A DNA stretch of 64,000 bases. It comes from Polynucleobacter meluiroseus (GTDB lineage Bacteria; Pseudomonadota; Gammaproteobacteria; Burkholderiales; Burkholderiaceae). A program made the translations under genes and the position numbers. Of this stretch, positions 18,575 to 22,167 are shown one piece after another (the stretch's first letter is position 1; every line of letters starts with the position of its first letter). Below the pieces are notes generated by a model. The model was given only the letters and a program-made list of their open reading frames with translations, ran no database searches and had not been told where the DNA came from. The DNA lies in the NCBI GenBank assembly GCA_945878885.1, contig CAMCUP010000004.1, forward strand, positions 29,030 to 93,029, read 5' to 3'.

Positions 18575-19627
18575 ATGACCCAAGCTCAAGCAAATACAAA
18601 ACCACTAACCCAGTTTCAGTCAAAATCTCTGGCGAACAATTTCTCATCGAGCAGCACAATCGGTAAGCAAGGGATCTGGAGCCATGCGGCAGTGGCGACA
18701 CTGTTTAATTTACCCTTGAATCAGCTAATTTGGCAGGCACAAGAAACGCATCGTGCTTATTTTCCCGATGGCGATATCGAACTGGCAACCTTGGTTTCAA
18801 TTAAAACGGGCGGCTGTCCAGAAGATTGCGGCTATTGTCCACAAGCTGCGCGTTATCAAACTGGCGTTGAGGCCACTAAGTTAATGACCCTTGAGGCAGT
18901 GCTTGCGGCAGCACAAGCCGCAAAGGCCGCTGGATCAAATCGATTTTGTATGGGGGCTGCTTGGCGAGAGCCTAAAGATCGTGATATCGAAAAAGTAGTA
19001 GCCATGATTCGTGGTGTTAAGGCGCTTGGCCTAGAGACTTGTGCCACGCTGGGTATGTTAGAACCTGAGCAGGCCAAAACCCTCAGCGATGCAGGGCTTG
19101 ATTTCTATAACCATAATCTCGATACCAGTGAAGATTTTTATTCTGAGGTAATTCAAACCCGGGTTTATCAAGATCGCTTAGATACAATTGACCATGTGCG
19201 GGCAGCGGGAATGTCGGTTTGTTGTGGGGGGATTGTTGGCATGGGCGAGTCGCGTGAACAACGGGTGGCTTTTTTGGCTCGTTTAGCCAATTTAAGTCCT
19301 TACCCAGAATCGGTGCCGATTAACCATCTTGTACCTGTAGTAGGTACCCCACTAGAGGCCCAAGTAGCTTTAGACCCTCTCGAATTTGTGCGCACGATTG
19401 CCGTAGCCCGCATCACAATGCCAAGCGCAAGAGTGCGTCTATCGGCTGGTCGTCAAGAGCTCGGTAGGGCCGTGCAAGCAATGTGTTTTATGGCAGGCGC
19501 AAACTCTATTTTCTATGGTGAGCAACTGCTTACTACCAGTAATCCTGAGGCAGAATATGACCGTGCTTTATTGGCCGACCTAGGGTTACAAGTCAAGGAA
19601 AGCTATAAAGCTGAGGTGGTAATTTAA
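18575..19627 (+). CDS. bioB: Biotin synthase (radical SAM)
   Basis: BioB inserts sulfur into dethiobiotin using a radical-SAM [4Fe-4S] cluster and a sacrificial [2Fe-2S] cluster. The 350-residue protein has the CxxxCxxC motif (Cys81, Cys85, Cys88), the [14 protein letters not shown] segment, and the conserved late [12 protein letters not shown] region. The first 30 residues are a low-complexity extension rich in Gln, Ser and Asn compared with E. coli BioB. The stop codon is immediately followed by the coq7 ATG. Confidence 0.97.
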
Positions 19628-20269
19628 ATGACTAGTTGGTTTGACCGCTGTATTATTGAATTTGATTTAGCTTTGCGTTCAGTAGTCGGAGGCTCTGTAG
19701 CTCAGCGGCCAAACCCTGCAAATCTATCCTCAGGCGCAGCAGTTTTGCCGCAACTAGATCAACAAGAGCGTAATCATGCGGCGGGCTTAATGCGCATTAA
19801 TCATGTTGGCGAAGTCTGTGCTCAAGCCCTGTATCAAGCACAAAAATTACTCGCCCGCGACCCCCAAATTGGCGCGATGTTAACCCAGGCGGGTCAAGAG
19901 GAATTAGATCATATGGCTTGGTGCGAAGAGCGACTAAGTGAGCTGGGATCTCACACCAGTTACTTAAATCCATTTTGGTATAGCGGGGCTTTTGCGATTG
20001 GATTGGCCGCCGGTTTAGCAGGCGATCGTTGGAGCCTTGGTTTTGTCGCAGAAACTGAAAAGCAAGTTGAGCGTCATTTAGACCATCATTTAAATACCTT
20101 ACCTATGAACGATGAACGTTCACGTGCCATCGTTGACCAAATGCGTCTTGATGAAATCGAACATGGCCAGGCTGCTTGGCAAGCAGGCGCTCAAGCTTTG
20201 CCAGAGCCGATTAAAAAAACCATGGGCCTCGTTTCTAAAATAATGACTGCAACGGCTTACCGTATTTAA
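19628..20269 (+). CDS. coq7: 3-demethoxyubiquinol 3-hydroxylase, di-iron Coq7 family
   Basis: Coq7 hydroxylates demethoxyubiquinol, the penultimate step of ubiquinone synthesis. The 213-residue protein has the ferritin-like di-iron ligands expected: [17 protein letters not shown] (E), [14 protein letters not shown] (ExxH), a middle glutamate in [15 protein letters not shown] and the late LDEIEHGQ (ExxH). It starts directly after the bioB stop, so it is probably co-transcribed with bioB. The window also has a UbiH-family flavin hydroxylase of the same pathway. Confidence 0.96.
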
Positions 20270-20285
20270 AACTGATTTAGATTAA

Positions 20286-20305
20286 TACTGTATTTAAAAA
20301 CAGTA
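20286..20305. promoter_or_regulatory. Near-consensus LexA (SOS) box
   Basis: The 20-mer TACTGTATTTAAAAACAGTA has the CTGT-N8-ACAG core of the LexA operator with an A/T-only centre, and matches 17 of 20 positions of the E. coli consensus TACTGTATATATATACAGTA. It lies 16 nt after coq7. A possible promoter with TTAATA (20282-20287) and TATATT (20304-20309), 16 nt apart, would be blocked by LexA here. Confidence 0.65.
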
Positions 20306-20353
20306 TATTAAGCGATTTTTAAGTATTATTAGCTTAAATAGCTAAGACATAAT

Positions 20354-20431
20354 ATGAAGTATATTTTCCAAGCCCTTGTTTATTTTAAGTATTTTATTCG
20401 CTTTAATTTCTTAAAAGAATTCGCTAAGTGA
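20354..20431 (+). CDS. Candidate 25-residue cationic, aromatic-rich peptide downstream of the SOS box
   Basis: An ORF too short for the ORF track starts with ATG at 20354 and reads MKYIFQALVYFKYFIRFNFL before ending KEFAK. It is rich in Phe and Tyr, with a net charge of about +4, as in small membrane-active peptides. It lies 48 nt after the LexA-like box, and its stop codon is inside the following palindrome. There is no good Shine-Dalgarno sequence and the region is AT-rich, so chance is a serious alternative. It resembles no family I recognise; the comparison with SOS-induced TisB is only by layout. Confidence 0.25.
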   Translation: MKYIFQALVYFKYFIRFNFLKEFAK

Positions 20432-20450
20432 TTGTAATCACTAGAGAATT
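20418..20450. repeat. Imperfect palindrome / hairpin upstream of the mra promoter
   Basis: AGTGATT-GT-AATCACT (20427-20442) is a perfect 7 bp inverted repeat, extended by CT/AG and AATTC/GAATT with one bulged A and one mismatch. As RNA it would form a stable hairpin that might end transcripts from the left; as DNA it could be an operator. No T-tract follows on the plus strand, so it is not a typical intrinsic terminator. Confidence 0.5.
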
Positions 20451-20474
20451 TGCTAAAAAAACCCTTTAAAACAC

Positions 20475-20503
20475 TTGACCCTAAGATACCTATCCTCTAA
20501 AGT
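20475..20503 (+). promoter_or_regulatory. Probable mra (dcw) promoter
   Basis: TTGACC (20475-20480) and TAAAGT (20498-20503) are separated by 17 nt, a good sigma-70 arrangement. Transcription would start near 20510, within the MraZ-type repeats, 20-25 nt upstream of the mraZ GTG start. Confidence 0.55.
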
Positions 20504-20526
20504 GGGAGGAAGTGTGAAAAAGTGGG
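20502..20526 (+). promoter_or_regulatory. MraZ operator: three GTGGG-type repeats at 10 bp spacing
   Basis: GTGGG (20502), GTGTG (20512) and GTGGG (20522) recur with an exact 10 bp period directly upstream of mraZ. This is the known MraZ binding pattern of GTGGG repeats with 5 nt spacers. It overlaps the expected transcription start, consistent with autorepression of the dcw operon. Confidence 0.75.
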
Positions 20527-20533
20527 GTAATTT

Positions 20534-20962
20534 GTGTTTCAAGGCGCGTCAGCTCTTAATTTGGATGCAAAAGGTCGCATGTCGGTGCCGGCTAAGCACC
20601 GCGACGCGCTTTTATTGCAGGGCGACGGTCGCGTTACCCTAACCAAACACCCCGATGGCTGTTTATTGGTTTTCCCACAACCCGAGTGGGAGGCTTTTCG
20701 GTCGCGAGTAGCTCAATTACCAATGGATGCCCATTGGTGGCGTAGGATTTTTTTGGGTAATGCAGCAGAAATTGAGCTAGATGGCTCGGGAAGAATATTA
20801 ATTAGTCCCGAACTACGAGCTGCAGCAAACATTGAGCGTGAAATTATTTTGCTGGGAATGGGTAGTCATTTGGAGTTATGGGATGCCCTAACTTATACCA
20901 GCAAAGAGCAAGCGGCAATTGCGCAAGGTATGCCAGAAGCCCTCAAGCAATTTACTTTTTAA
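20534..20962 (+). CDS. mraZ: Transcriptional regulator MraZ
   Basis: MraZ is an AbrB-like DNA-binding protein that represses its own dcw operon. The 142-residue protein contains two SpoVT/AbrB-type repeats: [17 protein letters not shown] at about 8-24 and [19 protein letters not shown] at about 79-97, each with the DxxGR core. It begins with GTG at 20534. The GTGGG repeats directly upstream fit autoregulation. Confidence 0.96.
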
Positions 20963-20974
20963 TGACGGGGCAAC

Positions 20975-21904
20975 ATGAACTATTCTCATCGCCCAGTTTT
21001 GCTGGCCGAGGCGGTAGCAGCGTTAAGCAGCAGCAAGTTCAGCAACAATGCAGTGCTAATCGATGGGACGTTTGGGCGCGGCGGCCATTCACAAGCTTTA
21101 CTCAACTTGCTCAACTCCACAGCACGCCTCATTGCATTCGACAAAGATTTGAGTGCGCTTACAAGTGCAAAACAAATAAGCGATCCACGCTTCACCATCA
21201 TCCACGGCAGTTTTGCGACGATGGCGCAGTATGCCAAGCCAAACTCAGTCGATGGCGTACTGCTCGATTTGGGAATCAGCTCGCCGCAAGTCGAAGAAGC
21301 GGTTCGCGGCTTTTCATTTCGACGAGATGGGCCACTCGATATGCGCATGGACACCTCTCAGGGCATCACTGCGCTGCAATGGTTGGAGCAAGCTAGTTGT
21401 GAGGAAATAACTGAAGTGATTAAGACTTATGGAGAAGAGCGCTATGCCCCAGCCATCGCCCGTGCGATTGTGGCTCTGCGTACCACCGAACAATTACCCA
21501 AAACAACCTTAGGTTTAGCCCAATTAGTTGCAAACGTTGTTCGGTCGCGCGAGCCAGGACAAGATCCAGCCACCCGAACCTTTCAAGCTTTACGCATTTT
21601 TATTAATCGTGAATTAGATGATTTACACCATGGATTAGAAGCCGCACTGGCACTCTTAAAACCTGGCGGTCGTTTAGTTGTCATTAGCTTTCATTCTTTG
21701 GAAGATCGTATTGTTAAGCAGTTTATGCAGTCCCATGCTACGGTGGTAATGCCACGTAAATTACCAATTCGCGCTAAAGATTTACCTCCCGCAGAGCTCA
21801 AACTTATTTCGCGAATTCGTCCTACCATAAATGAAATTGCAAGCAATCCACGTGCCCGTTCAGCCATTATGCGCGTTGCAGAAAAGCAGGCGCCTCAAAT
21901 ATGA
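20975..21904 (+). CDS. rsmH: 16S rRNA (cytosine(1402)-N(4))-methyltransferase
   Basis: RsmH methylates N4 of C1402 of 16S rRNA. The 309-residue protein has [10 protein letters not shown] at the N-terminus, the SAM-binding [44 protein letters not shown] and the late [15 protein letters not shown], all family signatures. It is second in the dcw operon, 12 nt after mraZ, and overlaps ftsL by 4 nt (ATGA). Confidence 0.97.
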
Positions 21905-22167
21905 ATCGAGCAACCCTAAGCTTGCTAACTTTATTATTAATTTGTGCCTTGTCTTTAGTGGCCGCACAACAGAAAGCGCGCAAACTATTTATAGAAATTG
22001 AACGCGCACAAATGGAAGAGCGACGTTTAAATCAAGAGGCTCTGCGCTTGGAATACGATCAGCGTACCTTATCAAAATCAGCACGCATTCAAGATAGCGC
22101 TCGCAATCAATTGCTTATGCTACCGATTACACCAGACCGAACTTTATATTTAAAGGAAGTCCCGTGA
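21901..22167 (+). CDS. ftsL: Cell division protein FtsL
   Basis: FtsL is a small bitopic divisome protein that works with FtsB and FtsQ. The 88-residue product has one N-terminal transmembrane helix (about residues 5-22) followed by a charged coiled-coil segment with heptad-like Leu and Glu/Arg spacing. Sequence conservation in this family is weak, but position between rsmH and ftsI with 4 nt overlaps on both sides makes the assignment safe. Confidence 0.92.

Follow-up and report, generated by a model that had tools for sequence, protein, structure and literature searches.

Introduction

SOS control of cell division is usually attributed to dedicated inhibitors such as SulA. SulA, YneA and DinR, which are proteins or sRNAs dedicated to this purpose, all couple the SOS response to division, whereas the operator described here fronts the division operon itself. 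The closest described precedent comes from Gram-positive gut bacteria, in which a LexA site preceding a mraZ homolog was predicted, and was bound by B. subtilis LexA in EMSA (PMC3998124). That site likewise places a LexA operator before mraZ, but it has the Gram-positive LexA motif, belongs to a separate lineage, and was reported as binding only, without a function. In B. cenocepacia, no dcw promoter other than PmraBc was found, with mraZ to ftsZ forming a single transcript regulated through MraZ repeats, and promoter fragments of 161-bp and 289-bp showed similar activity (PMC7761207).

We analyzed the region upstream of mraZ in a 64-kb stretch of Polynucleobacter meluiroseus DNA (the window, 64,000 nucleotides). 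The features of the locus are collected in Table 1. A LexA site before mraZ in Polynucleobacter or other proteobacteria was not found in the open-access literature. Compared with the Gram-positive case, the site is of the proteobacterial CTGT-N8-ACAG type and appears to have been gained independently inside Polynucleobacter, a predicted new, independently evolved and lineage-specific variant of SOS-division coupling.

Table 1. Features between coq7 and mraZ, with both flanking genes (positions in the window)
Feature	Position	Strand	Description
coq7, upstream neighbor	19628..20269	+	Same strand as mraZ; Pfam COQ7
Candidate LexA-controlled promoter	20282..20309	+	-35 TTAATA (20282-20287), spacer 16, -10 TATATT (20304-20309)
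LexA (SOS) box TACTGTATTTAAAAACAGTA	20286..20305	+	Consensus match 17/20, half-site conservation, clade-wide presence
Conserved noncoding cis-element, box to mraZ promoter	20338..20450	+	Core TAAGT-N2-TTGT at 20425-20435, family-wide
Proposed 25-codon ORF	20354..20431	+	Judged not a gene; no Pfam match
Short dyad (CTAAGTGATTGTAATCACTAG)	20424..20444	.	Conserved core of reported hairpin
Main dcw promoter (Pmra)	20475..20503	+	TTGACC, spacer 17, TAAAGT; almost invariant across family
MraZ-box repeats GTGGGA / GTGTGA / GTGGGG	20502..20527	+	10-nt spacing; family-conserved; downstream of both promoters
mraZ, first dcw gene	20534..20962	+	Pfam MraZ

Results

The initial annotation of this region claimed a 17/20 match to the LexA consensus between coq7 and mraZ, and the site was confirmed and found to be conserved across a clade. 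It is the sole LexA-type match in the window, with no match in 100 shuffles, and forms a CTGT-N8-ACAG palindrome within an intergenic promoter region. A search of the entire 2.2 Mb genome, by pattern matching only (ACTGT-W4-N2-W2-ACAGT), found three sites without mismatches, namely this box and sites upstream of recA and of umuDC. lexA has its own one-mismatch site just 5' of its start. Two-mismatch sites occurred at chance level in the genome-wide count and were outnumbered by matches to a reversed control pattern, which leaves only the best sites informative. The genome encodes RecA, and a LexA with DNA-binding and S24 domains. Judged from its sequence, the box is a real and strong LexA-type site. 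The plasmid collection gave no matches. The LexA-like site of lexA (L036 ~1483-1518) runs up to the predicted start codon, and that of umuD (L032 ~1498-1518) is placed likewise; leaderless transcripts or mis-called starts are possible for these two genes.

In the E. coli recA promoter, the LexA box lies between the -35 and -10 elements. The candidate promoter is built alike, with the box in the 16-bp spacer and a -10 that overlaps the box end, and transcription would be expected to start near position 20316. The -10 hexamer TATATT is present on the mraZ side, directly after the box, in 65/90 relatives. On the minus strand, any single hexamer occurs in at most 9/90, and because none is comparably conserved, the promoter faces mraZ. 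The arrangement differs from the recA type in that the -35 is weak, variable and not conserved among relatives, and in that its target is the division operon, not a repair gene.

To define the occurrence of the box, the locus was located via MraZ in 120 of 121 Polynucleobacter genomes, and the upstream regions were read in about 110. The box was strongly upheld by this comparison, being present in all genomes of one Polynucleobacter clade (89/89). It lies 233-238 bp from mraZ in nearly all bearers (225 in one genome). In the species of the window and in two close relatives, where a 10-bp insertion directly follows the -10, the distance is 246 bp. In contrast to this fixed spacing, the gap between coq7 and the box can be anywhere between about 6 and 82 bp. 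Alignment of 90 boxes showed that seven half-site positions (A2, T4, G5 and A15-C16-A17-G18) are invariant (90/90), with C3 present in 89/90 and T6 in 84/90, while the spacer positions vary. Six relatives have G at the T6 position, giving a CTGG half-site that is probably weaker.

Neither the 12 small genomes of a Polynucleobacter sister group nor five deep-branching Polynucleobacter genomes have the box. No LexA box was found upstream of mraZ in 36 sampled genomes of other Burkholderiaceae genera, or in 29 further genomes of the class. A scan of named genomes identified the bearer group as Polynucleobacter. In a tree of mraZ coding DNA, the 89 bearers form one side of a single branch, requiring one change (0/500 shuffles as low); the support of 89 for this branch comes from a short gene and a quick method. 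A single gain of the box is the simplest history suggested by these sequences. Absence of the box through loss of LexA was rejected, since the box-less clade still encodes LexA. One 1.55 Mb Polynucleobacter genome (G016) has mraZ in two frames, an apparent frameshift (L129, G016:C1:87221-87645), and also has a degenerate box (TATTGGACATAAATACAGTA).

Downstream of mraZ lie rsmH, ftsL, ftsI and murE (Pfam MraW, FtsL, PBP and Mur ligase). The main dcw promoter, about 195 bp downstream of the box promoter, is the positional homolog of the mapped PmraBc of B. cenocepacia (PMC7761207), and together with the MraZ-box repeats (20475-20527) is the counterpart of the MraZ-regulated promoters of E. coli and B. 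cenocepacia. A second, LexA-controlled promoter is unreported in B. cenocepacia (PMC7761207).

The sequence between the box and the main promoter contains an element whose conservation extends to the box-less clade and, in broad outline, throughout Burkholderiaceae. Its core, TAAGTC-N-TTGTTCT, precedes the main-promoter -35 by about 55 bp. Among Burkholderiaceae genomes carrying the 14-mer TAAGTCNTTGTTCT, nearly all have a single copy, located upstream of mraZ; the sole exception seen is a Polynucleobacter genome (G015), in which it lies elsewhere. Because this sequence is conserved without the box, and is found once per genome upstream of mraZ, we regard it as a long-standing cis-acting part of the dcw promoter and not of an SOS cassette. 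TAAGTCNTTGTTCT (20425-20435; family loci L132-L163) matched no known regulator. In the box-less sister clade, the gap between coq7 and mraZ is only about 197 bp (L104, L108-L110, L112, L113, L115, L117, L119, L121, L122), so that the element starts right after the coq7 stop. A 13-nt direct repeat spotted by eye in the element was rejected, being no better than shuffles. A structured RNA was also rejected, as alifold gave six pairs only, the single-sequence z was -0.9, and there was no Rfam match.

A strong hairpin at 20418-20450 had also been reported. It does fold in this sequence (about 20417-20451, -10.8 kcal/mol, z -2.8), but only the short core dyad is conserved, and the hairpin is not an intrinsic terminator, since neither strand carries a T run. 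The outer helix of six pairs is mostly broken in relatives. The core dyad (CTA.GTG..CAC.TAG) is kept in the box clade by sequence identity, and its pairing is lost in the box-less sister clade. No covariation was detected in the dyad, and the low column-shuffle z of the hairpin rests on sequence identity. The dyad is a possible operator. It occurs about once per genome, and a multi-site regulon defined by the dyad or by TAAGTCNTTGTTCT was rejected, with about one site per genome. No terminator-like site was found between the box and mraZ in 89/90 relatives.

Within the same region, a 25-codon ORF had been proposed as a TisB-like SOS toxin. Its frame is open in the window, and its composition is aromatic and cationic. 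Comparison with the relatives refuted the ORF: the start is ATG in 1/90 box-bearing genomes, that of the window itself, and CTT in 84, and in-frame stops break the frame in many. It has no evident Shine-Dalgarno sequence, and a scan of both strands revealed no other small ORF closed by a conserved start and stop. By this sequence comparison, the ORF is an artefact.

Discussion

We propose with moderate confidence that the box is a functional LexA operator in an accessory promoter (P_SOS), from which the SOS response would drive additional transcription of mraZ and the dcw operon. In undamaged cells, LexA would cover P_SOS. Upon DNA damage, LexA cleavage would free the promoter, and polymerase initiating near the predicted start would traverse the noncoding element and then the main promoter to reach mraZ and the rest of the operon. 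The outcome would be extra MraZ, interference with the main promoter, or both, tying division-gene expression to the SOS response. The sequences themselves show the box, its conservation, the orientation of its promoter and the lack of a terminator or conserved ORF; LexA binding in vivo, SOS induction, read-through into mraZ and an effect on division are what we infer.

Several observations argue for an accessory promoter. The box equals those of recA and umuDC in quality, in a genome that encodes LexA. It has a single apparent origin and has been retained in every member of the clade, with fixed half-sites and a free spacer. Its distance is fixed relative to mraZ and variable relative to coq7, and the -10 lies on the mraZ side, with no terminator-like site in nearly all relatives. 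The LexA site of the Gram-positive mraZ homolog (PMC3998124) and the mraZ-to-ftsZ transcript of B. cenocepacia (PMC7761207) provide precedents. The unconserved -35 and the six CTGG half-sites count against it. An SOS link to division, as the initial annotation had suggested, is thus supported at the level of sequence by a conserved, dcw-proximal box with a promoter that faces mraZ.

A rise in division-operon mRNA during SOS makes little intuitive sense unless the action of MraZ or interference prevails. In E. coli and M. genitalium, MraZ represses dcw (PMC8475190). Extra MraZ would accordingly repress the main promoter, and passing polymerase could disturb it too; the RNA from P_SOS would itself also carry the division genes. 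Because the MraZ repeats lie downstream of both promoters, they could throttle both. Against the proposal, MraZ is reported to act as an activator in certain mycoplasmas (PMC7761207).

An SOS-induced transcript could instead end before mraZ as a separate sRNA of about 100-200 nt, with targets in trans such as division mRNAs. Klebsiella DinR, a LexA-controlled sRNA, represses ftsZ (PMC10907235), and the sequence downstream of the box is strongly conserved and noncoding. However, no intrinsic terminator is present, 20310-20530 shows no fold excess (z -0.9), and neither the covariation nor the conserved RNA structure expected of a DinR-like sRNA was found, nor an Rfam match. An SOS transcript does not account for the conservation, because the sequence predates the box and persists in genomes without it, and we consider an sRNA unlikely. 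It is also quite improbable that LexA, while bound to its site, works chiefly by regulating the main promoter, through looping or occlusion of the element, and not by repressing its own promoter: the fixed spacing from the box to the element and promoter would fit, but 195 bp is far for direct occlusion, and the conserved -10 next to the box suggests promoter occlusion of the classical kind.

The remaining explanations fare worse. Two-mismatch LexA-like sites are common by chance in this genome, but a functionless chance match is very hard to reconcile with the lack of shuffled matches in the window, the 89/89 retention and the fixed half-sites. A box driving a 25-aa cationic peptide resembles TisB/IstR in this strain alone, in which a short cationic ORF follows the LexA box. 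Unlike in TisB/IstR, the ORF is not conserved, and no antisense RNA gene was found by Rfam search (19000-22000, no match even at E up to 1, a search that an undescribed antisense RNA would escape). With its start in a single genome, its broken frame and no conserved ORF in its place, we regard a toxin as extremely improbable.

Returning to the accessory promoter, a more far-reaching version is tentative, and we would not presently favor it. In one clade, the whole division operon (mraZ through fts) might have come under direct LexA control via a second promoter gained once, with division throttled by MraZ produced under SOS, by transcription running across the main promoter, or by both, in place of a SulA-type inhibitor. 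SulA (PF03846) was not found above the cut-off in 25 genomes of the genus, which is weak evidence of absence because Burkholderiales SulA-like proteins score near the Pfam cut-off. If true, a clade-wide, never-lost LexA promoter at the division operon would represent a different, transcriptional route of SOS-division control, in free-living freshwater bacteria in which the system would be easy to test.

The analysis also flagged, in the dcw promoter, an undescribed cis-element conserved throughout Burkholderiaceae. Many Burkholderiaceae share a second family-wide motif in front of mraZ, roughly TCACTTTCACAA ... TAGCTCATTCATTTATAACG, which precedes the TAAGT core by about 60-110 bp (L132-L158).
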